Source of the DNA: a virus
DNA length: 57,555 nt
Virus record (IMG/VR): IMGVR_UViG_3300044251_000011
Span: 1-57,555 of that record
Reading direction: 5' to 3' (one strand)
Positions within the stretch are counted from its first letter, which is position 1; each line of letters starts with the position of its first letter. The position numbers and the translations under genes are program-made. Below, in pieces: positions 315-57,335 of this stretch. Under the pieces are notes generated by a model that was given only the letters and a program-made list of their open reading frames with translations, made no database searches and was not told where the DNA came from.

Positions 315-2021
315 CTACAGCCGAACGCCCAGCTTCTTGACCGCGCGGCGGCCGGAGATCCGGGTGATCAGGTCGGCCGCGTCGCCCTGGGTCTTCACCA
401 GGTGGACCTTGCTCTCCGGCAGTCCCTCGCGGACCAGGCGGCCCCGCTGGAGCACGCTCGCCGGTGCGTTGCGCCAGCGCGCGTCCCGCTCGGCCAGCCG
501 CTGGAACGCCTTGGCCCGGTCCTCACCGATGCCCATCGCCCAGTCGCTGGGGATCTCCTCGTGGAGAACCTTGACCTTGCCGTTCTCGTACGCGGCCAGC
601 TTCCAGGCGTCCACGCCGTCCGGCACCATCACCACGATCTCCTTGCCAGCGCCCAGGACCCACGCCGGGCCGACCGGGAGCCAGGAGAGCCGGGACGCGC
701 CGAACACGTCCACCCGGCCGCCCCCGCTGGCGCGGCAGTTCTCGTGCCGGTGCTCGCCCTCGTTGGTCGCGCTCACGGGGAGGTAGCGAGAGCACAGCGA
801 GCACCGGTGCTCCTCGACCTCGCACGGCTCCCCGCACGTCGGGCACGGCTGGCGCTCCGGCTCGCCCTCCTTCTTCTGGCGGCCCTCGTCCAGCTCCAGG
901 CCCAGGTCCACGTACCCCACGAACTCGTGCCGCTTGCTCGCGCCCACCAGGTCCAGGATCAACAGGTCTTTCTTGCCCGGGTGGAGCCGCGTCCCCCGGC
1001 CGATCATCTGGACGTACAGGCCGTGGAACTTGGTCGGCCGCGCGACGATCACGCACGAGATCGAGGGCTCGTCAAACCCCTCGGTCAGAACGCCGCAGTT
1101 GACCAGGACCCAGGTCTCCCCGGTCTTGAGCCGCCGGAGCATCGCGCGGCGCTCCTCGGTCGGGGTCGTGCCGTCCAGCGCCTCGGCGGCCACGCCGCGT
1201 GCCCGGAGAGCACCGGCCAGCGCGTGCGCCGTCGCCACGGTCGGGGTGAACGCCACGGCCTTGCGGTCGCTGGCGTGCTCCACGTAGGCGTCCGCGATCT
1301 GGACGATTGCGCCGGACTCCTCCATCTCCCGGCCCAGGTCGCCCTCGGAGAAGTCGCCCCCGCGCTTGCCGACCTGGCGCATGTCCATGTCGGTCTCGAC
1401 CACGATCGAGGGGAGGATGGGCACCAGGTACCCGCCCTCGTGGCCGTCCTTGCCCTTCTTGCCGTTGCCGTAGATCGCCTCGCGGATCGACATGAAGGCG
1501 GCCAGCTTCTCCCAGACGCCCAGGGTCTTCTTGTCCCGCTCGGGCGTGGCCGTGAACCCGACCGTGAGCGGGCCGTACGAGTTGAACGAGCCGAGCCCCT
1601 TCAGAACCTTGGTCCAGCTCGGGGCCGGTGCGTGGTGCGCCTCGTCAACCCAGATCGTGCCGAACGGCGAGCGGCGCGCGGCCTCCACGAGCTGGGCCAG
1701 CCGCCGGTCCACCTGGGCGGTCTGGACCGAGGCCACGACCACATCGGCGTCCACCTCGTTCTCCCCGGCCTTGACCACCCCGGCGGACAGCTCGGGGGCC
1801 ACCATGCCGATCTTCTCGATGGTCTGGCGGGCCAGTTCGTCCCGGTGCACCAGCACCAGCGAGCGGCCCCGGGTAGCCCGCTCCTTGATCCCGTGGCTGA
1901 ACACCACGGTCTTCCCCGTTCCGGTCGGCAGTACGACCAGCGGACGCCTCACGCCCTCGCGCTCCGCCTGCTCGATACCGTCCAGCGCTTCCCGCTGGTA
2001 GGGCCGCAATCCGAGTGCCAT
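315..2021 (-). CDS. SF2 DNA helicase (DEAD/DEAH family)
   Basis: 568-residue superfamily-2 helicase, expected to unwind DNA using ATP during phage replication or recombination. Visible motifs: Walker A PTGTGKT near residues 32-38, DEAH at 126-129, the TAT motif III (GFTATPERD) near 155, and motif VI QMIGRGTRLHPGK near 350. A C-terminal Cys4 knuckle (CPTCGEPC...CSLC, about 395-412) is probably a zinc finger, followed by about 150 residues of unknown fold. ATG at 2021 follows AAGGA/GGAG and lies about 24 nt below the start predicted from the promoter at 2052-2080. It resembles the RecG/XPB-like helicases common in actinophages; the exact role is inferred. Confidence 0.92.
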   Translation of the reverse strand: MALGLRPYQREALDGIEQAEREGVRRPLVVLPTGTGKTVVFSHGIKERATRGRSLVLVHRDELARQTIEKIGMVAPELSAGVVKAGENEVDADVVVASVQTAQVDRRLAQLVEAARRSPFGTIWVDEAHHAPAPSWTKVLKGLGSFNSYGPLTVGFTATPERDKKTLGVWEKLAAFMSIREAIYGNGKKGKDGHEGGYLVPILPSIVVETDMDMRQVGKRGGDFSEGDLGREMEESGAIVQIADAYVEHASDRKAVAFTPTVATAHALAGALRARGVAAEALDGTTPTEERRAMLRRLKTGETWVLVNCGVLTEGFDEPSISCVIVARPTKFHGLYVQMIGRGTRLHPGKKDLLILDLVGASKRHEFVGYVDLGLELDEGRQKKEGEPERQPCPTCGEPCEVEEHRCSLCSRYLPVSATNEGEHRHENCRASGGGRVDVFGASRLSWLPVGPAWVLGAGKEIVVMVPDGVDAWKLAAYENGKVKVLHEEIPSDWAMGIGEDRAKAFQRLAERDARWRNAPASVLQRGRLVREGLPESKVHLVKTQGDAADLITRISGRRAVKKLGVRL

Positions 2022-3354: not shown

Positions 3355-3383
3355 ACCTTACAGGGTAGACGGCAAAGTGTCTA
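3355..3383 (-). promoter_or_regulatory. Early promoter with variant operator
   Basis: Minus strand TAGACA (3378-3383), 17 bp, TAAGGT (3355-3360). The upstream part is itself a palindrome of the same geometry as the main operator but with a different arm: TAGAC-N8-GTCTA (3366-3383). The exonuclease stop codon lies in it. Confidence 0.65.
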
Positions 3384-4508
3384 CTTGGGGTCGGCCTTGA
3401 TCTTCAGCTCCTTGGGGACCGAGATCGTCATGCGCCGGTATCGACTGCTCACGGTCACGGCCTCGGCCACCTCGGGGTACAGCGTCCGGAGCGCGTCCAC
3501 GTCCACCCGCTTGGAGCTGACCTCGGGGTACCCGACGATCTTCCGCTCCCCGAGGTAGGCCGCGCCAGCGCCGCCGGTCCAGTCGCGGAACTGGTTCTTG
3601 ATCGTGGTCAGCCGCTTGTCCGCCAGCTCGGCGGCCACCTTGGCCTCCTGGTACTCCTTCAGCCAGTCCTCCGTGATGCCCCCGCCGGGCAGCTCCACCG
3701 AGGGCGTGATCACCGTGGGGTTCTGCTCCTTCAGCAAGTCCTCGGTGATCGGGTGCGAGTAGTCGTGCATCGGGATCTCGTCGCCCAGGACGTGCACCTC
3801 CCAGAACCGATCGGCGGCGGCCACCATCTCCCCGAACCAGTCAGGATCGAAGTGCACCTCCACCGTGAAGAACTGGCGGGACCGGTCGATGTGGAAGCAA
3901 CCCAGGTAGCCCACGGGAAGGCCCAGGATGCCCATCTGCCACTGGATCTGAGCCTGGTAGGCCAGGGGAGCGGAACCCGTCCCACGGCCGCCAGGGCGGA
4001 TCGTGCCGGACTCCCAGTGCTCATCGTCCCCGGCCGTCTTGCACTCGATCACGGCCTCGGCTTTCCAGCTCCTGGGCTTGCACGCGAACCGGTCCGGGGT
4101 CACCCGGATGTACGGCTTGTCGGTCATCGCCCACAGGCCCCCGCCGAACCGCGAGACCATGCCGATCTCCTCGGCGGTCTTGCGGGCCACGACCTCCTCC
4201 AGCCGGTGGCCCCACTCGATCGGAGCGCCGGTCAGCTCCACGTCCGGCTCGGTCCGCTTCTTCTTGTTCCAGATCGACATCGCGGTCTCGTGCTCGTTCA
4301 CCCCGATGAGCGCCCCGACCTCGGAGCCGCCCACGCCATCGCGGCGAGCGGCCAGCCACGGGCCGCGTCCGGCGCACTCGGGGAGGATCAGACGGCTCGG
4401 TGCCGAGCGCGGACTGGCGAACCGGTGGACGGGATGGGGGCACGCGAGGCGGCCCCCGGAGCGGGCCAGGTAACGCTCTACCTGGCCCGCCTCGGTGGTG
4501 ATCGTCAT
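3381..4508 (-). CDS. YqaJ-like viral recombinase / exonuclease
   Basis: 375 residues, PD-(D/E)xK nuclease of the lambda exonuclease/YqaJ group, which degrades one strand at double-strand ends to allow single-strand annealing. Visible signatures: GVGGSEVGALIGVN near the start of the domain, IEWGHRLEEVVARKTAEEIG, TPDRF (catalytic D), AVIECKTAG (catalytic ExK), then AYQAQIQWQMGILG. The first 45 residues are extra. ATG at 4508 overlaps the upstream stop (ATGA). It belongs with the putative ssDNA-binding protein and RuvC-like gene as a recombination module. Confidence 0.9.
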   Translation of the reverse strand: MTITTEAGQVERYLARSGGRLACPHPVHRFASPRSAPSRLILPECAGRGPWLAARRDGVGGSEVGALIGVNEHETAMSIWNKKKRTEPDVELTGAPIEWGHRLEEVVARKTAEEIGMVSRFGGGLWAMTDKPYIRVTPDRFACKPRSWKAEAVIECKTAGDDEHWESGTIRPGGRGTGSAPLAYQAQIQWQMGILGLPVGYLGCFHIDRSRQFFTVEVHFDPDWFGEMVAAADRFWEVHVLGDEIPMHDYSHPITEDLLKEQNPTVITPSVELPGGGITEDWLKEYQEAKVAAELADKRLTTIKNQFRDWTGGAGAAYLGERKIVGYPEVSSKRVDVDALRTLYPEVAEAVTVSSRYRRMTISVPKELKIKADPK

Positions 4509-4696
4509 GGCTGGTTGACCTCCACGGTCACGGTGATCTCGGTCGGCCACGGGCCGGTCAGACCGGCCTCGCGGAGTTTGTCCTTCCGGACGTACAGGTT
4601 GGACACGGCCTGGCCCAGCCGGTCCGGCGCGGCGTACATGACCGCGCCCTTGGTCTCCTTGACGAACGGGAGCACCACGGCGACCTTGACACTCAT
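4505..4696 (-). CDS. Small hypothetical protein in recombination operon
   Basis: 63 residues, MSVKVAVVLPFVKETKGAVM..., with alternating beta-type stretches ending TEITVTVEVNQP. It resembles small actinophage proteins found beside exonuclease genes, of unknown role. Its stop overlaps the exonuclease ATG by ATGA, so translation is coupled. Confidence 0.75.
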   Translation of the reverse strand: MSVKVAVVLPFVKETKGAVMYAAPDRLGQAVSNLYVRKDKLREAGLTGPWPTEITVTVEVNQP

Positions 4697-4699
4697 CTG

Positions 4700-5176
4700 T
4701 CAGCCCCCGTAACCACGGCGGGTGGCCCGGAGGAACGGGTCCGCGTCGCCCCGGATGCCCTCCAGGAGAGCGCCCAGGTCGATGGCGCTGACCGAGGCCA
4801 CCTCCACGGACGCCAGCTCGAACTCCGCGAGCTGAGCGGCCATCTGGAGGCGGCGGCCCCCGGTGGTCAGCCAGTCGGCCAGGCCGTCCGAGCTGACCGC
4901 GTTCGGGGCGTTCTTGCCGGTGACGTACCAAAGGTCCCGGGTCTTGTACGCGATGAACGCGTACGGCTGGCTCCGGCCCAGGGTGACGGCCAGGCCCAGG
5001 ACGGACCCGTTCGCCAGCTCCCCGAAGTCGGGCAGCGCCGCCAGCTTCTCCAGCTCCTTGACCGCGCGGCTGGTACGGGCCTCGGTCTCGCGGTCGATCT
5101 CCTCCAGCGCCGCCAGGCGGTCCCGCTCGGCGGCTTCCAGCTCGCGCTCCAGCGCGGCCTTCCTGTTGCTGATCAT
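4700..5176 (-). CDS. Coiled-coil plus WYV-type hypothetical, paralogue of 2126-2467
   Basis: 158 residues. Residues 1-45 (RKAALERELEAAERDRLAALEEIDRE) are a strongly charged heptad-like helix. Residues about 50-100 repeat the pattern of the protein at 2126-2467 (NGSVLGLAVTLG, FIAYKTRDLWYVTGK, LADWL). The rest is helical and unrecognised. It is closely packed between the RuvC-like gene (7 nt) and the 63-residue gene (4 nt). Confidence 0.75.
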   Translation of the reverse strand: MISNRKAALERELEAAERDRLAALEEIDRETEARTSRAVKELEKLAALPDFGELANGSVLGLAVTLGRSQPYAFIAYKTRDLWYVTGKNAPNAVSSDGLADWLTTGGRRLQMAAQLAEFELASVEVASVSAIDLGALLEGIRGDADPFLRATRRGYGG

Positions 5177-5182
5177 CTCCGT

Positions 5183-5677
5183 CTAGCCTTCCATCTGGAT
5201 CTTGTCCAGCGATTCCCGCTGGACCTTGGGGAGCTGGAGAACCGGCTCGCCCATGTGGTCGTTGGCCCCGACCCACAACCACCAGGCGTCACACTGGTTG
5301 TCGTCGCGGAACTCCAGGTCCCCGCGCTTCAGGGCGGCCAGCGCCATCTCGGTCTTGCTCGCCCCTCCCCGCCCGGTGGCGAACTTCTTCAGGCTCGCCG
5401 GGGGCAGCGTGGCGTACTTCAGGCCCTCCTCGATCAGGGCCGCGCGGACCGCGCCGTGGACCATGCCCGTGATCCCGGCCGACATCGACCGGTTCAGGTA
5501 GCCCTCGATCAGCACGAGGTCCGAATCCCGGACGTACTCGATCACCCGCTTGGCGATCTCCGGGAGCCGGAGGTCTCGGGCCTCGCGGGGCTTGATCAGG
5601 TGCGTGCACGCGGCCCCCTCGACCGTGTGACACACCCCGGTCCCCGTCATCGAGAGATCGAGGCCCGAGACCTTCAT
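5183..5677 (-). CDS. RuvC-like Holliday-junction resolvase
   Basis: 164 residues, RNase H-fold nuclease of the RuvC type, expected to resolve recombination or replication junctions before packaging. The pattern is complete: GLDLSMTGTGV (first catalytic Asp), DLVLIEGYLNRSMSAG (catalytic Glu), ATGRGGASKTEMALAALK (basic helix), and DDNQCDAWWLWVGA (last acidic residues). Length matches the family. ATG at 5677 overlaps the upstream stop as TGATG. Confidence 0.9.
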   Translation of the reverse strand: MKVSGLDLSMTGTGVCHTVEGAACTHLIKPREARDLRLPEIAKRVIEYVRDSDLVLIEGYLNRSMSAGITGMVHGAVRAALIEEGLKYATLPPASLKKFATGRGGASKTEMALAALKRGDLEFRDDNQCDAWWLWVGANDHMGEPVLQLPKVQRESLDKIQMEG

Positions 5678-6045
5678 CAGGCCCGCCCGTCGTACGTCGC
5701 GTCCCCGTCCTCGTACGTACCCGGCATGGTGGCCGGGCCGCGCGAGGGGTCGGCCGCGTCGCGGATCTTGTTCAGGCGGTCCGGGAGCGCGTCCGGGGTG
5801 AGCGCCGCCTGGGCGATCTCGGCCACGGCGGGCTCGTTGCGGATCGTGTTCAGCTTGACCAGCAGCGCGGCCAGCTCCACCACGTCCATCTCCACGTGGA
5901 GGACGTGGAAGTCCGGAGTCAGCTCGAACTCCACGCACACGCGCGGCACGCCCTCCAGGATCGTCCGGCCGTCCACCGGGACCTCGGTGGTGATGTGGTC
6001 CCACTGGCGGAGGTTCAGATCCTTGACCTTGGTACGGATGTGCAT
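5677..6045 (-). CDS. Hypothetical protein, first gene of recombination operon
   Basis: 122 residues, MHIRTKVKDLNLRQWDHITTEVPVDGRT..., beta-rich for the first 60 residues, then a helix (VELAALLVKLNTIRN) and a disordered tail. No family recognised. It follows the promoter at 6084-6113 by about 32 nt and has a GAAGGGGCCGAG ribosome site. Confidence 0.75.
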   Translation of the reverse strand: MHIRTKVKDLNLRQWDHITTEVPVDGRTILEGVPRVCVEFELTPDFHVLHVEMDVVELAALLVKLNTIRNEPAVAEIAQAALTPDALPDRLNKIRDAADPSRGPATMPGTYEDGDATYDGRA

Positions 6046-10731: not shown

Positions 10732-11471
10732 GCACCATTCCTACCTTCCTCCTCACGGAGTCGTCTCGCGGAGCGTACCCGGGACGGTCCCGACCGAAGC
10801 GGTCTACGCCGTGCCAGCATTGGATCAGTAAGGGCCTGGCCGGTCCAATTGATCTCCAGCGCCGAGCCCTCGTGGTGCCGCCGGGCCACCCGCTCCCGGG
10901 CCTTGTGCTTGGTCAGCGAGGGGATCGGGAGGTGGTCCACCAGGGACGGCCACGTGTACCAGACATCGTGGCCGCGCCGCTCGGCCCAGCCCGCCACCCG
11001 CATATCGTCCGGCACCCCGGCGCGCGTCTCGGCGTACTGGATCATGTCCCCGATCAGCTTGACGGGGAGCGCGATACAGACGCCCCACATCAGTTTCTGG
11101 CTCCGGACCCAGGTGGCCCCCGCCGTGTCGGCGGCGCGCGCCATCGCCTCCCAGCGGATCGGCACGTTGCGGCCGGTGCCCAGGTACGGCGAGACCACGG
11201 CGTCCGGCGGGACGAACGTCAGAGCGCGCTCCAGCCCGGCCAGGAGATCGGCGCACGGAACCGCGTCGTCCTGGATCAGGACGTGCCAGTCCGCGTCCGG
11301 GTCGGCCAGCTCCCAGGCCCGGCGCGCGGTCCGCCAGACTCGATCGCCGCTCCCCGAGGGCGGACCCTCGTCGTCCCAGCCGATCGCCACCGGCCGGTCC
11401 AGGGCGGCCATCAGCTCGCGCACCCGGTCCGCCCGGTCCGGGTGCGCCATGATGCTGGCGGAGAGTTTCAC
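10728..11471 (-). CDS. Glycosyltransferase-like protein
   Basis: 247 residues. It starts MKLSASIMAHPDRADRVRELM and contains VLIQDDAVPCADLLAGLERAL with a QDDA acidic pair in the position of a sugar-nucleotide/metal site, then MWGVCIALPVKLIGDMI and HDVWYTWPSLVDHLP. This fits the GT25-like/phage glycosyltransferase type; the donor and target are unknown. GTG at 11471 overlaps the stop of the upstream glycosyltransferase fusion (GTGA). The product probably modifies virion proteins made from the adjacent operon. Confidence 0.75.
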   Translation of the reverse strand: MKLSASIMAHPDRADRVRELMAALDRPVAIGWDDEGPPSGSGDRVWRTARRAWELADPDADWHVLIQDDAVPCADLLAGLERALTFVPPDAVVSPYLGTGRNVPIRWEAMARAADTAGATWVRSQKLMWGVCIALPVKLIGDMIQYAETRAGVPDDMRVAGWAERRGHDVWYTWPSLVDHLPIPSLTKHKARERVARRHHEGSALEINWTGQALTDPMLARRRPLRSGPSRVRSARRLREEEGRNGA

Positions 11472-13300
11472 CGGCCGTCCGCGAGGGCCTGGAGGATCAG
11501 GTCCCGCTTGTCCTTGCGGACGCCCAGCACGATCCCCCGGTGCTTGGCGAGCGCCTTCAGCGTCGGGATCGACAGCTCGGAGATCGGCTGGCCCACGGTG
11601 GCCTCGACCACCAGGGCATCGTTCAGCCCGACCCGGGTCAGGTCCCCGTGGTGCCCGTTGCTTGACGTGTCACTGTCAAGCGCGGCGGCCGACTCTCGGA
11701 GAGCGGCCACGCCCTCGGGGTCCACGCGCTCCCACTCGGCCTCCAGCGTCGCCTTGTCCTCCGGCACCTCGGGACCGGCGGCCACCTGGCCGCCCACGGC
11801 CGGGTACGGGGAGGGGTGGACGCCCTCGCTCGTGATGGCGGTCGCCGTGCCGGTCGGCTTCAGCTTGGGCTCCTCGGTCGTCACCAGCCGGGTGACGGCC
11901 AGCCGGTCCGCGTGGATCTCGAACTCCTCCAGGAACCCCTCGGCCACCAGCTCCTCCAGCGCCTCGCGGACGCCGGGCCAGTCCGGGTGGTCCAGGTCGT
12001 CCACGGCGATGGTCGCGCCGGGGGCCAGGTGCGGAGCCCAGACCTCGATGTCCTGGCGCGCGCCCTCCTTGCTGTGGTCGCCGTCCACGAACAGGAGCCC
12101 GACCTGGCGGCCGGACCAGTCGGCGGCCACCTCGTGCGAGAAGGCGTGAACCAGGTCGATCTTGTCCTTGTACCCGAACGAGTCCACCCAGTAGGCGGCC
12201 CAGGTGCGCGAGTCGGCCTCGGTGAACGGCGGGCCGTACGTGTTGCCCGGGGCGTCCCACGCGTCGATGGCGGTCACGTGCGCGCTGTTGCCCAGCCCCG
12301 CACCCCAGGCGAGTTGCAGCGCGGTCCGGCCCTGGAACACGCCGATCTCCACGATCTCCTGGTCCGCCGGGACCTGGATCGCCAGATCGGCCAGGGTCAC
12401 CATCACATCGTCCGGCGTGGCCGCCCGGACGTTCTTGAACTGGATCGGCGGCCGGGGGCTCCGCTTCTCGGCCAGGCGGCGCGAGGTCGGGCCGGAGCGC
12501 TCCACGCGGCGCGGCGCGGAGCCAGCCACGCGCGGCCGGGCGGCCGGGCTCGGGGTGCTCGTCGGTTCGGTCACTTCAGGCCGTCCTCTCCGTAGGTGGC
12601 GGATCTCCGCCACGTCGGTCCGGAACACGTCGCCGTGTCGCCAGCTCTCGTACGCGCGCCGGTCCCGCTTGAACTGGTCCCGGTGGTTCACCCGCTGGTA
12701 CTGGGCGTCGGTCTCAGCCTTGCCCACGATCGGGTGCATGTGCTCCACCCGCACCTCGGGGAGGAAGCGGAGAGCACCGGCCGCGCCGAACATCTCCATG
12801 ATCGAGTTGTCGCAGTACATGTGCTCCACGTCGGCTGGGACCATCCGGCCCAGCGCGGCCACCACGTCCGAGGTCACGGCCCACTCGGTGCTGAGGTTCT
12901 TCCCCTGGTACCCGTCGTCGCTGTAGACCATCCCGCTCCCCAGCTCGCGGAGGACGGTCAGGTACCGCTCGGCCCAGCCGATCGTCCGGGGGAGGTGGTC
13001 GTCACCAGCGAACCCGAGGGCGAACCAGCCAGCGGCCAGCGCGGCGGCGGCCTCGTTCAGCTTGTGGACCATCGGGACGTGGTGGTCCACCTCGTACGTC
13101 TTGATCAGCGCGTCGCCGGTGTCCGGGTGCCGGGTCTCCTCGACCAGGGCCAGGTACCCGGGGTACTCCGGGTCGTCCTTGTCGATGACCAGCACCATGT
13201 CCGCGCGGTCCCAGGCGTTCGTGAAGTCCCAGGCGCTGATCACCTTGCGCACGTTGCCGGGGCGGCCCCGGGTCGGGATCAGGACAGCGAGATCACGCAT
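11468..13300 (-). CDS. Fusion: GT2 glycosyltransferase, class I methyltransferase, SAP/Rho-N-like domain
   Basis: 610 residues. Residues 1-about 215: GT-A glycosyltransferase (LAVLIPTRGRPGNVRKVI, VLVIDKDDPEY, FALGFAGDDHLPRTIGW, MVYSDDGYQG). After a basic Pro/Ser linker, residues about 290-470 resemble the methyltransferase-24 family (IVEIGVFQGRTALQLAWGAG, LLFVDGDHSKEGARQDIEVW, GATIAVDD). The last 35 residues (ISELSIPTLKALAKHRGI...KDKRDLILQAL) resemble a SAP/Rho-N helix-turn-helix. An operator (11662-11679) falls in the linker before this tail. A combined sugar-plus-methyl modification enzyme is inferred. Confidence 0.85.
   Translation of the reverse strand: MRDLAVLIPTRGRPGNVRKVISAWDFTNAWDRADMVLVIDKDDPEYPGYLALVEETRHPDTGDALIKTYEVDHHVPMVHKLNEAAAALAAGWFALGFAGDDHLPRTIGWAERYLTVLRELGSGMVYSDDGYQGKNLSTEWAVTSDVVAALGRMVPADVEHMYCDNSIMEMFGAAGALRFLPEVRVEHMHPIVGKAETDAQYQRVNHRDQFKRDRRAYESWRHGDVFRTDVAEIRHLRRGRPEVTEPTSTPSPAARPRVAGSAPRRVERSGPTSRRLAEKRSPRPPIQFKNVRAATPDDVMVTLADLAIQVPADQEIVEIGVFQGRTALQLAWGAGLGNSAHVTAIDAWDAPGNTYGPPFTEADSRTWAAYWVDSFGYKDKIDLVHAFSHEVAADWSGRQVGLLFVDGDHSKEGARQDIEVWAPHLAPGATIAVDDLDHPDWPGVREALEELVAEGFLEEFEIHADRLAVTRLVTTEEPKLKPTGTATAITSEGVHPSPYPAVGGQVAAGPEVPEDKATLEAEWERVDPEGVAALRESAAALDSDTSSNGHHGDLTRVGLNDALVVEATVGQPISELSIPTLKALAKHRGIVLGVRKDKRDLILQALADGR
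11662..11679. promoter_or_regulatory. Operator palindrome, intragenic
   Basis: TTGAC-GTGTCACT-GTCAA, perfect outer arms, in the interdomain linker of the glycosyltransferase fusion. Confidence 0.7.
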
Positions 13301-52997: not shown

Positions 52998-55900
52998 CTA
53001 CTTCTCGTAGCAACGGGACCAGTCGGTCCCGGTCTTGCTCACGTCCGCCAGGATGGGCACCCCGCGCCACTCGAAACTCAGCGCCTCGACCACGGCCCGG
53101 CCGACCTCCTCCGCCTCGGCCACCGGCACCGAGAACACGATCTCGTCGTGGATCTGGGCGCGCAGCATGGGGAGGATGCGCCGGTCCAGGCGGAGGAGCC
53201 CGGTCATCATGATGTCGCGTGCCGCCCCCTGGCCCATCAGCGCCGGACCCTGGGTGTGGGCGCGCTGGGGGTCGGCCCGCATCATCCGGCCGAACCCGTT
53301 GTCCAGGAGCTGGCCGCTCTCGGCCACGGCCCGTACCTCGGTCTGCCACTCGACCAGCCGGGGGAACTTCTCCCGCATCGAGAGGTCGAACTGGCGGACC
53401 AGCTCGGGCGCGATGTCCTCGCCCTCGCTGATGGCCCGGATGCCCCGGCCGTAGTTCCAGCCGTGACCGATGGGCTTGGCGATCTCGCGCTTACTGCGGT
53501 CCCCGAACAGCTCCTCCGCGATCTCGGCGTGGGGGTCCTCGGACTTCAACATCTCGATGTACGCGAGATCCTGGGACAGCCCGGCCACGGCCCGCATATC
53601 GACCTGGCTCAGGTCGGCGGACACCAGCACCTCGCCGGGGTCGGGCAGGAACACGGCCCGCTCCACGTGGCGGCCCCCGCGCTTGCCGAACACGGTCAGC
53701 CCCGGGCGGGTGACGGACCACCGGCCAGTCGCCTGGTCGAACCCGATCTTGGGGTGGACCCGGCCGTCCGGACCCATGTGATCCATCGCGGTCTGGTAGA
53801 CCGAGCGCGCGCCCACGATCCGGTGGACGTGCATGGCGATCTCCTGGACCCGCGCGAGGTGGCCGAACTCGGCCCAGAGGTGGGCCATGTGGTCGCCGGA
53901 CACCTGGAACTCGCCGGTGGGCGTCCGCCAGAAGAACCCGGGGGACACCCCGGCCTCGGCCAGCGCGATCTCCAGCGCCTCCTTGCCGCCCTTGGTCGCC
54001 AGCGGCGAGGCGTACGCCTTGCCCTTGGGGTCGGCCAGCGGGACACCGGCGTTCTCGGCCAGCCAGCCCACGCTCGTGGCCTTGCTCTCGTTGACCTGGG
54101 TCACCCGCTCGGTGAGGAGCGGCTGGTCCACCAGGAACCCGTTGTGGCGGATCTGGGCGGCCAGGGCGGCCACCCGGTGCTCGCGGGCCAGGTAGTCCGG
54201 CACCGTCCCGCCCAGGCCCTCCAGGAGCCGCGCGTGGAGCCGCCTCGACAGCTCCACGTCCTGGACCATGTAGGTCTGGAAGCTGGTCGCGTCGGCGGCC
54301 CGCTCCTCGTCGGGGTCGGCCAGGTCCACCGGGATCTCACCCCAGCCGCCGTACTTCTTGGCGAGCGGCTTGGACAGATCGGTGTACTTCTCCCCGAGGC
54401 CCTGGCTCACGGCCAGCGTGCCCAGGTCGTACTTGCGCTTCTGGTCCACGCCGTGCTCGCGGGCCATCGGCGGGTCCAGGAACCGGGCGGCCAGCAGGCC
54501 ATCGAACAGGCGGCCGTCCTGGGCCAGGTCGTGAACCTCGTCCATCGTCATGGCCCCGGCCCGCACCAAGGCGGGGAGGTCGAACGCCACGATGTTGTGG
54601 CCGGTGATCGTCGCGCCCTGGCGGATACGGGCGGCCACGTCCTCGGCCACCGTGGAGCCGCCGAGCGCCAGCACCTCGCGGCCGTCGTGGGCCACCGCGC
54701 CGATCCGGACGTACTCCCGGCCCGGGGTCGTGTAGAGGTCGTCCGCGTCGCCGGTCTCCAGGTCGAACGTCGCCGTGTCCACAGCCTCGTCCACAGGCTG
54801 TGGACCCACGGCGGGCTCGGCCAGCTCGCGGTCTGCCACCTGGCTGTCTGCCTCCTCGCCGGTTGACACCTCAGTGTCAACCACGTCCGCCCCGCCGTGG
54901 CACTCGCTGGAGTGGCAGTACACCCGCTCGTCACGCGGGCACCGGCACACGTCGTCCGGGCCGTCCTGGGGCTCCTGGGGCTCGGTGCCGGGGGCCGGGG
55001 GAAGATCCTCGCCGGACTGGAACACGCGCCAGATCGAGACGTGGCCGTGCGCGCCGCCGGACCGCTCCACCCAGAACTCGCCGTACCGGCGGCCCCGGAG
55101 CCGGGAGTACGCCTCGCCCAGGTTCTTGCCGTAGCTCTTGTCCGTGGGGTCGTCCAGCTTGGGGGGAGCGAGGAACCCGGCCGGGTCGGCCATCGCTCGC
55201 GCCTTCACCTCGGCCGTACGGAACGGCTCCTCCCCGAACGTGGCCCGGAGCCAGCCGAGGTGGCCCGCCCAATACTGGGTGTCGAAGTCGCTCTCCGAGC
55301 GCCACACCTTCAGGTTGTCCAGGAACCCGGTCAGCCCGGCCACCTCGATGATCCCGCCCACGATCCGCTCCCAGACCTCGAACGAGCCGAACGAGACGCC
55401 CCGCTTGGGCCGGGGCTGGCCCTGGGCGAACCAGGCTCGGACCAAGGTCAGGATGGCGGTCATCAGCTCGGCCCGGTGCTTACGGGTCCAGCTCCCCAGG
55501 TCGAGCCCGGACTGGCCGGGGTGCCGGAAGGTCTCGGCCTTGCGGTCCTGCGGGTTGGCGTACGGCGGCCGGAGCGCGATCTGGTAGACGCGCCGGGTCA
55601 GGTCGCCCTTGACTTGGACCTGGTTGCCGAGCGAGATCCAGGTGATGACGTTCGGGAAGTTCGCCATCGTGGAGACGCCCAGGATGCGGTCCTGCCAGGT
55701 GCTCGCCGTGAGGGCCTGGGCCAGCGGCGCGCCCTCGATCGTGTGCGCCTCATCGAACACGAAGAACTCCGCGCCGGTGCGGAACGCGGCCGTGATCTGC
55801 TTGCGGAGTTCGTCCGGATCGGGAACCCAGTTCATCGGCTCGGCGGCCGTGCCCGTGTAGACCGTGAGGATCTGGTCCGCCAGGAGGTTCTTCCCCACGC

Positions 55901-57335
55901 CCATCTGGAGACCGTCGATCACGGCCAGCGGGACCTTGGGCACCATGCCCCGGATGGCCGGGGTCACGATCAGCGCCATCACGTTGGCGCGCGCCGTGTC
56001 GTCCATCAGCGGGAAGTCGCCCAGCCAGTCCTCCAGGATGAACCGGCGCGCCGCGTCGATCTCCTCGGCGCTCGGGTCCTCCGGCACCTTCAGCCCATCG
56101 AACATTGGGTCCGGGATCAGCATGGTCCGCGTGGCCTCGTCGTACCCGGCCTCGGTGACCACGGTCCCGTCCGGCCGCACGAACGGCGCGTGGCTGATCC
56201 GGTCCAGCGGGGAGAAGGAGTCCGCGCGGCTGATCACGGCGGCCATCGTGTTGGGGTCCGGCCAGGCGAACGAGTAGGTGGTGCCGTTCGCGCCCTCGTT
56301 CTTGTTGACCGTCCGCGCGGTCTCGGCCACCAGGTCGTTGAACGAGCCCTTGTCCACCGGGTGCATGGCGTCGCCCTTGCGGCGCGAGATCACCCCGCCG
56401 TGACAGAACAGCTCGGTGGCGTTCCACTTCTCCAGGAGCGCGCCGGTCAGCGCGTTGATCACATCCAGCCGGTCCTCGTTGACCACGATCGTGGCCCGGC
56501 CGTCCTTCTCCCCCTGGTCCCCGCCCGGGGCCGGGGCCTTCTTCTTGGTCGGCACCTTGTCGGCGGGCTTGCTCTTGGCCGTGGTCACGATCCGCTCCAG
56601 GTATGCAGCACGCCGGGTCTCCTGTCGTCCGGCCAGCACATCGTCCAGGCCGCTCTTGTCGCCACCGCTCAGGCGGCCGAACAGAACCTTGGTGGCACCT
56701 TCCATCTCCAGCGCCTGGCCCAGCGCGACCCCGGCCGCGTAGACCTCGGGGTTGGTGGCCGCGTCCGCGTCCAGGATCACCACGACCTCGCGGCCGTCAA
56801 CGGCCACCAGGTCCGGGATCGGGGAGCCGTCAAGCTGCCACATCCGGCACCCCGCGATGCCGTACACGCCGACCCCGGCCGGTGCGTACGAGGCGGCGGC
56901 CAGCGCTTGCTTGGTGCCCTCCACGATCAGGACCCGCTCGGCCGATTCGACCGGGCGCACGGCCCACAGGACCGGGGTCATCTCCCGGCGGAACACGTAC
57001 TTGCGGGGCTTCTTGCCGGTGCCGGTGGTCGGCTCGTCGGGCCGGACCTGGTACTCCGTCCGGCCGTCCTCGGCTGTCCAGGGGAACAGGATGGCCGGGA
57101 AGTTCGCCCAGTTCACCCACTGGCCGCCCAGGTCTGCCACGTCGTCCGAGCTGAGCAGCGAGCGAACGCCGAGCGAACGAGCCAGGTCCAAGTCCACAGC
57201 CTGGGCCGCCAGGAACGAGGCGTGCTCCGGGGTCAGCGTGTTATCGTCGCCCACAGTTCGGTCTTCCTTTCGAGGTTGATCTCCTCCGGGCCGGTCCTCC
57301 AGGGACCGGCCCGGCTCCGTCTCCAGGGTGGTCAC
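52998..57335 (-). CDS. Fused TOPRIM - AAA/SF3-like helicase - family-A DNA polymerase
   Basis: 1,445 residues in one frame. Residues about 130-235: TOPRIM (RVLIVEGTKQALAA, E139; VVVILDADAATN, D189/D191; GGDKSGLDD). Residues about 280-750: ATPase with Walker A GLQMGVGKN (475-483), Walker B FFVFDEAH (524-531), SLGNQ sensor (568-572) and Arg pair 581-582, as in D5/SF3-like phage helicases. A Pro/Glu-rich linker (about 770-845) holds an operator. Then a complete proofreading exonuclease (FDLETG, TGHNIVAFD, YMVQD) and polymerase motifs A (SADLSQVDMRA, near 1238), B (KREIAKPIGHGWNYGRG) and C (QIHDEIVFS). GTG at 57335 overlaps the previous stop. Confidence 0.93.
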   Translation of the reverse strand: MTTLETEPGRSLEDRPGGDQPRKEDRTVGDDNTLTPEHASFLAAQAVDLDLARSLGVRSLLSSDDVADLGGQWVNWANFPAILFPWTAEDGRTEYQVRPDEPTTGTGKKPRKYVFRREMTPVLWAVRPVESAERVLIVEGTKQALAAASYAPAGVGVYGIAGCRMWQLDGSPIPDLVAVDGREVVVILDADAATNPEVYAAGVALGQALEMEGATKVLFGRLSGGDKSGLDDVLAGRQETRRAAYLERIVTTAKSKPADKVPTKKKAPAPGGDQGEKDGRATIVVNEDRLDVINALTGALLEKWNATELFCHGGVISRRKGDAMHPVDKGSFNDLVAETARTVNKNEGANGTTYSFAWPDPNTMAAVISRADSFSPLDRISHAPFVRPDGTVVTEAGYDEATRTMLIPDPMFDGLKVPEDPSAEEIDAARRFILEDWLGDFPLMDDTARANVMALIVTPAIRGMVPKVPLAVIDGLQMGVGKNLLADQILTVYTGTAAEPMNWVPDPDELRKQITAAFRTGAEFFVFDEAHTIEGAPLAQALTASTWQDRILGVSTMANFPNVITWISLGNQVQVKGDLTRRVYQIALRPPYANPQDRKAETFRHPGQSGLDLGSWTRKHRAELMTAILTLVRAWFAQGQPRPKRGVSFGSFEVWERIVGGIIEVAGLTGFLDNLKVWRSESDFDTQYWAGHLGWLRATFGEEPFRTAEVKARAMADPAGFLAPPKLDDPTDKSYGKNLGEAYSRLRGRRYGEFWVERSGGAHGHVSIWRVFQSGEDLPPAPGTEPQEPQDGPDDVCRCPRDERVYCHSSECHGGADVVDTEVSTGEEADSQVADRELAEPAVGPQPVDEAVDTATFDLETGDADDLYTTPGREYVRIGAVAHDGREVLALGGSTVAEDVAARIRQGATITGHNIVAFDLPALVRAGAMTMDEVHDLAQDGRLFDGLLAARFLDPPMAREHGVDQKRKYDLGTLAVSQGLGEKYTDLSKPLAKKYGGWGEIPVDLADPDEERAADATSFQTYMVQDVELSRRLHARLLEGLGGTVPDYLAREHRVAALAAQIRHNGFLVDQPLLTERVTQVNESKATSVGWLAENAGVPLADPKGKAYASPLATKGGKEALEIALAEAGVSPGFFWRTPTGEFQVSGDHMAHLWAEFGHLARVQEIAMHVHRIVGARSVYQTAMDHMGPDGRVHPKIGFDQATGRWSVTRPGLTVFGKRGGRHVERAVFLPDPGEVLVSADLSQVDMRAVAGLSQDLAYIEMLKSEDPHAEIAEELFGDRSKREIAKPIGHGWNYGRGIRAISEGEDIAPELVRQFDLSMREKFPRLVEWQTEVRAVAESGQLLDNGFGRMMRADPQRAHTQGPALMGQGAARDIMMTGLLRLDRRILPMLRAQIHDEIVFSVPVAEAEEVGRAVVEALSFEWRGVPILADVSKTGTDWSRCYEK
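54863..54880. promoter_or_regulatory. Operator palindrome in interdomain linker
   Basis: TTGAC-ACCTCAGT-GTCAA; with the next bases GGTTGACAC-CTCA-GTGTCAACC forms perfect 9-bp arms, the most symmetrical site in the genome. It encodes VDTEVSTG between helicase and polymerase parts. Confidence 0.75.

Follow-up and report, generated by a model that had tools for sequence, protein, structure and literature searches.

A predicted TOPRIM primase, SF3-like AAA+ motor and proofreading family-A polymerase in one phage polypeptide

The gene and its reading frame

Does a single phage polypeptide carry the primase, the motor and the polymerase of a replication fork and, if so, are its parts those of phage T7? 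We asked this of one gene in a 57,555-base stretch of DNA (hereafter the window), which is an entire virus record (IMGVR_UViG_3300044251_000011) from a virus of actinobacteria. The window is nearly collinear with the complete genome of Actinoplanes phage phiAsp2 (58,638 bases), and the contig is cut between its counterparts of pas53 and pas54. Given this collinearity and lengths of 57.6 kb and 58.6 kb, little sequence is missing.

A preliminary description of the window had placed in one frame, at 52998-57335, the catalytic residues of a TOPRIM domain, an ATPase resembling ring helicases and a family-A polymerase that has all three exonuclease motifs. We found this frame on the minus strand (as are all features of the gene given below), where it is free of stops for 1445 codons and encodes 1445 amino acids counted from the first GTG. 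Long open reading frames come cheaply at the 70% G+C of this DNA, and an 886-residue antisense frame overlaps the gene, yet homology excludes a chance frame: the PHROG 17 family 'DNA polymerase' (phrog_17) matches residues 30-1444 (E=1.9e-181), Pfam DNA_pol_A matches residues 1174-1440 (E 4.7e-27), the TOPRIM-like Pfam family DUF3854 matches residues 135-237 (E 1.6e-6), and phiAsp2 Pas55 (YP_024841) is 79% identical over the full length. These profile matches, together with the conserved catalytic residues described below, bear out the combination of parts that had been proposed. The full architecture of Pas55 and of PHROG 17 is identical to that of the window protein; the GenBank label of Pas55 is 'putative DNA polymerase' only, and the record is silent on the primase and helicase parts.

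Although the longest frame starts at 57335, the gene, which shows whole-length homology, probably begins at GTG codon 28 and spans 52998..57254. This GTG, at 57254, is preceded 8 bases upstream by a ribosome site, AAAGGAAG, and aligns with the annotated start of Pas55. The predicted product from this start is 1418 amino acids long.

Predicted primase and motor parts

At the N-terminus, an AlphaFold2 model predicts the N-terminal part of a primase domain of the RNA-polymerase type, without a zinc ribbon (residues 35-130; 56946..57233). It is followed by the TOPRIM domain (residues 131-252; 56580..56945), identified by DUF3854 and by residue conservation, whose residues E139, K142, D189xD191 and G229-DD232 are invariant across 19 relatives. 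E139 and D189/D191 correspond to the TOPRIM glutamate and DxD motif, and the fold is of the DnaG type: the best PDB match of the residue 1-775 model is Aquifex DnaG (2au3), over 257 columns. DnaG-type primases use a zinc-binding domain for template recognition, and the zinc-binding domain of DnaG and T7 gp4 (PF01807, Zn_ribbon_DnaG) had no match in the virus record. The lack of this domain is where the primase claim is most vulnerable.

We considered a zinc finger in the linker that precedes the exonuclease, where the window protein has a short Cys-rich stretch, CRCPRDERVYCHSSECHGG (approximately residues 797-815; 54891-54947). The cysteines are missing from phiAsp2 and from most relatives, so this stretch is not a core feature of the protein. 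Short Cys-rich stretches of differing sequence also occur in the linkers of six members of the window's clade (L011, L143, L146, L152, L155 and L156), with none in phiAsp2; such stretches might substitute for the primase zinc domain in some members.

The middle of the protein can be divided into three segments. The first, a domain that precedes the AAA+ core (residues 280-420; 56076..56498), is ordered in the model and partly conserved with ATPases of plasmids and jumbo phages. The AAA+/SF3-like ATPase core (residues 421-600; 55536..56075) contains a Walker A motif (residues 475-483, GLQMGVGKN) and a Walker B motif (D528E529), and K482, D528E529, N571 and R581/R582 are invariant in 32 sequences; by their positions, we assign N571 as the sensor-1 asparagine and R581/R582 as the arginine finger. 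The third segment comprises a helical lid and a C-terminal domain (residues 601-775; 55011..55535) for which the secondary structure of the model suggests the name winged-helix-like.

The AlphaFold2 model of residues 1-775, built from 32 sequences, has a mean pLDDT of 85 and a pTM of 0.55, a value that leaves the relative placing of the TOPRIM and ATPase parts unsure. After Aquifex DnaG, its PDB matches are the primase-helicases D5/E5, AsfvPrimPol, NrS-1 and SaPI5, which form SF3/AAA+ rings, with low TM-scores, at 0.2-0.3 of the query, in part because single domains are matched. The predicted fold, with Walker A, Walker B, sensor-1 asparagine and arginine finger in place, is thus that of an SF3/AAA+ ATPase. 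In contrast, T7 gp4 and DnaB are absent among the top 50 PDB fold matches of this model, and the DnaB_C family (PF03796) had no match in the window record or in 17 related virus records, while control genomes were positive.

These results bear on the comparison with T7 that the preliminary description had implied. As in T7 gp4 and gp5, a TOPRIM primase part is linked to a putative ring motor and the polymerase is of family A with proofreading, and to this extent the comparison stands. It fails for the motor and for the zinc domain: T7 has an SF4 motor of RecA fold and a zinc ribbon. T7 also encodes gp4 and gp5 in separate genes. The identical order of activities, the TOPRIM primase and the family-A polymerase would all be expected if the middle part were an SF4 (DnaB/gp4) helicase and the gene a gp4 fused to a gp5; this explanation is contradicted by the lack of DnaB_C and of a zinc ribbon in the record and by the SF3/AAA+ folds among PDB matches, and we regard it as very improbable. 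On the strength of the model, the motor is D5/SF3-like AAA+ and not T7 gp4/DnaB-like.

Within the window's clade, the middle part belongs to no Pfam family. The curated SF3 families D5_N and DUF5906 are matched by 12 relatives of another type and by 0 of 7 members of the window's clade, and an hhalign comparison of the window-type ATPase profile against the D5_N-type helicase profile, both from shallow alignments, was not significant. The ATPase is therefore best described as a separate SF3-like lineage, and its designation as a helicase relies on fold and context. The D5-type SF3 primase-helicases (vaccinia D5/MPXV E5, NrS-1, SaPI5 Pri-Rep and AsfvPrimPol) are the best fold matches of the ATPase part but differ in having no fused polymerase and no detectable sequence-family match to the window ATPase. 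To our knowledge, they do not use a TOPRIM-type primase.

By sequence, the relatives of the ATPase are proteins of actinobacterial plasmids and of Caulobacter jumbo phages (25-34% identity). The plasmid ATPases are fused to a Prim-Pol (L067) or encoded beside one (L068, L069), and the jumbo-phage proteins are AEP-AAA+ proteins; these ATPases are homologous to that of the window, but the plasmid ATPases pair with an AEP PrimPol rather than with TOPRIM and PolA. The ATPase described by Iyer et al. may belong to the same family as that of the window.

Exonuclease, polymerase and sugar gate

The C-terminal part consists of a 3'-5' exonuclease domain (residues 851-1050; 54186..54785) and a family-A polymerase domain (residues 1051-1445; 53001..54185), the latter supported by Pfam DNA_pol_A and by PDB sequence and fold matches. 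All three exonuclease motifs of the preliminary description are present and conserved (D858/E860, D919 and Y1022/D1026), as are polymerase motifs A, B and C (D1241; K1287 and Y1295; H1396-D1397-E1398), and almost all of the 98 relatives keep these catalytic residues. The model of residues 845-1445 (pLDDT 92, pTM 0.90) is of Klenow type and matches the Bst, Klenow and Taq large fragments across both domains with a TM-score of ~0.73. We conclude that this part is a family-A polymerase with proofreading motifs.

Alignment to Klenow revealed an unusual pair of residues at the sugar gate. Glu710 is the steric gate of family-A polymerases against ribonucleotides and Phe762 its assistant, with Tyr, Phe and Leu as the variants observed at 762 in viruses (2026 preprint, PMC13228545), and a 2018 survey sorts viral PolA by Phe, Tyr or Leu at this position (PMC6302109). 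T7 polymerase, for example, has Glu480 in place of 710 and Tyr526 in place of 762. Unlike these described viral types (Glu710 with Phe, Tyr or Leu762), the window polymerase has Asp at 710 (D1246; codon 53598..53600) and His at 762 (H1291; codon 53463..53465). Asp occupies the first position in 93 of 98 relatives and His the second in 92 of 98; as pairs, 92 are Asp/His, 4 Glu/Phe, 1 Glu/Leu and 1 Asp/Val, the Val (L155) having the look of a local frameshift. The frequency of Asp is biased, as part of the PolA set was fetched with two patterns and one of these starts at Asp710, but Asp/His is found in 26/26 of the PolA set fetched without this pattern. Among isolates, 5/8 polymerases have the pair. 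We found no description of it in the literature searched, which lacked most subscription papers, and its novelty is accordingly a lead rather than proof. The pair offers a lead, open to testing, for work on nucleotide discrimination and on polymerase engineering.

The Asp710/His762 pair was also seen in the PolA of a Mycobacterium abscessus prophage, of Streptomyces phage JustBecause and of Microbacterium phage BarnCat (L138, L139 and L210), so that it marks a wider actinophage polymerase subfamily. In one locus (L106:3-4775), a PolA of the Glu710/Phe762 type is fused to a window-type ATPase. The same frame has an intein-like insert in polymerase motif B (residues ~1105-1440), for which no Pfam intein family was reported at E 0.01; it begins CVPLDSEILT and ends VMLTGN before a Cys.

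Fused and split forms and the role of the chain

Whether the chain is a consistent feature of a phage group was assessed by sorting fetched loci with HMMs made from our own alignments. This yielded 51 distinct genes whose single frame encodes the TOPRIM, motor, exonuclease and polymerase parts; 34 of these genes have the window-type ATPase and 17 have a D5_N/DUF5906 SF3 helicase instead. Every member of the window's clade with a complete contig is fused. Among isolates, the window-type fused form occurs only in phiAsp2, and no isolate with a fused D5_N-type form was found to cover 80% of such a query. A prophage or host copy was also sought, and no relative was found in 84,980 bacterial and archaeal genomes with six exact peptide patterns, a search that could miss distant copies.

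Split relatives, with TOPRIM-helicase and PolA as neighbouring genes, are also present (L003, L004, L014, L018, L031 and more). In the Streptomyces phages phiSAJS1 and Mischief19, a homologous TOPRIM protein ('DNA primase') and PolA ('DNA polymerase I') are adjacent and the polymerase has the same Asp/His pair, but there are two genes and the middle motor is of the D5_N/DUF5906 type. The existence of split homologues might suggest that two genes were joined in the window through an assembly or sequencing error. This is contradicted by the fused gene of the isolate phiAsp2 and by the 51 distinct fused genes, which come from independent contigs, and such an artefact is extremely improbable. The PolA tree, which was made with a quick method and contains long branches, requires at least 10 switches between fused and split genes and at least 4 between motor types. 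Within the tools that we used, this exchange of motors between a common TOPRIM and polymerase is new, as are the recognition of the parts in a phage protein, the SF3-like rather than T7-like motor and the double substitution at the sugar gate. Genes that come fused or split, and with two kinds of motor, amount to a natural experiment in replisome modularity.

The preliminary description had also held that primase-helicase and polymerase are normally separate. This is so in T7, phiSAJS1 and Mischief19, but fusion is known from Pas55, from the 51 genes and from apicoplast PREX, where a primase, a helicase, a 3'-5' exonuclease and a family-A polymerase form a single polypeptide (PMC8113025). A one-chain primase-helicase-polymerase is thus already known, as is, in GenBank, the sequence of Pas55, and at the domain level the window protein shares the single-chain composition of PfPrex and TgPrex. 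The PREX helicase is of the T7 gp4/Twinkle-type SF4 class, whereas the window motor is predicted to be SF3-like AAA+ and lacks the Twinkle-like character; with different motors, the two fusions are most likely independent in origin. As a bacterial-virus counterpart to PREX, the phage protein would allow the coupling between priming, unwinding and synthesis to be examined with a single purified protein.

We consider it likely that the one chain is the phage's own replication-fork enzyme, made up of a TOPRIM primase, an SF3/AAA+ hexameric helicase and a linker-tethered proofreading polymerase. The TOPRIM part would make primers, the middle part would assemble as an SF3/AAA+ hexameric ring and unwind DNA, and the C-terminal Klenow-like polymerase would extend the primers while the flexible linker ties it to the ring, so that six primases and six polymerases would be present in each hexamer. 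The usual polarity of SF3 helicases is 3'-5'. If the ring has this polarity, it would, unlike that of T7, track along the leading-strand template, the strand copied by its own polymerase. Support for this fork enzyme comes from the conservation of catalytic residues in all three parts, the domain profiles and both models; from the fusion in all complete clade members; from the same ATPase being fused to or beside Prim-Pol in plasmids; and from the adjacency of the TOPRIM-helicase and polymerase homologues in Streptomyces phages, as expected of partners. The virus record points the same way, as we found no PolB, PolC, PrimPol, DnaG zinc ribbon or DnaB in it and a single DNA_pol_A domain; the earlier statement that the window has no other primase or replicative polymerase is correct as regards PrimPol, PolC, PolB and the DnaG zinc ribbon.

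A different role is conceivable though rather unlikely: the TOPRIM-ATPase could, in the manner of a plasmid Rep protein, open the origin and prime the first strand, with PolA starting synthesis and host DnaB and DnaG then driving the fork. The nearest non-phage relatives of the ATPase, which in small plasmids are fused to Prim-Pol or encoded next to it, are consistent with such an initiator, as is the failure to find an SSB in 12 related phage records, which suggests that some host factors are probably used. However, initiation alone would have no need of a phage-encoded proofreading polymerase on the same polypeptide, and a diverse clade has retained the fusion.

In the fork-enzyme reading, the chain would stay uncut in the infected cell. 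The motor and exonuclease parts are separated by a variable linker (residues 776-850; 54786..55010), which is rich in Pro, Glu, Asp and Gly. In the 51 fused genes, the linkers are 41-185 amino acids long, poorly conserved, and contain 16% Pro and 12% Glu. An internal start that yields a split product was examined and rejected: across the 51 linkers, there was no excess of internal ribosome-site-plus-start codons (25 seen versus 28.9 with shuffled codons), and strong internal start sites numbered 9 versus 18.5 in shuffled codons. This lack of excess favours one product and adds to the support for a fork enzyme in one chain. The chain could also be made whole and then cut in the linker into primase-helicase and polymerase, as suggested for PREX. 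A long, Pro/Glu-rich and variable linker is likely to be accessible to proteases, related phages function with separate genes, and Toxoplasma Prex gives an extra band of ~130 kDa, which may represent the polymerase portion (PMC8113025). Yet no cleavage motif was evident by eye in the variable linkers, nor is there the internal-start excess noted above, and we regard such a polyprotein as distinctly unlikely.

A more far-reaching extension of the fork-enzyme reading is one that we put forward only tentatively and think rather improbable as a whole. It posits a phage lineage whose one-chain fork engine runs on a leading-strand-tracking SF3-type ring with exchangeable motors, and whose polymerase has a new natural Asp710/His762 gate that would discriminate ribonucleotides unlike known PolA, possibly helping a primase without a zinc domain.

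In L101 (5803-5941) and L102 (5680-5887), the end of the primase-helicase gene encodes a Cys-rich tail that resembles a zinc ribbon and overlaps with the frame of the polymerase, while in L103 (3266-7870) the matching region is read in the frame of the polymerase and the genes are fused. Comparison of these sequences suggests fusion by a small frame change within the overlap.

Across the contig break from the polymerase gene lies a helicase and recombination set, the Pas46/Pas49/Pas53 side. In the window, it comprises the equivalents of the phiAsp2 Pas53 helicase (PHROG 16; 315-2021, minus strand), the RecE-like exonuclease Pas49 (3381-5282, minus strand) and the RuvC-like resolvase Pas46 (5183-6004, minus strand). 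Further along, a 610-amino-acid protein (11468-13300, minus strand) matches a PHROGs DNA methyltransferase family along its entire length and, with a second, N-terminal match, a glycosyltransferase family; its phiAsp2 counterpart sits between two glycosyltransferase genes.
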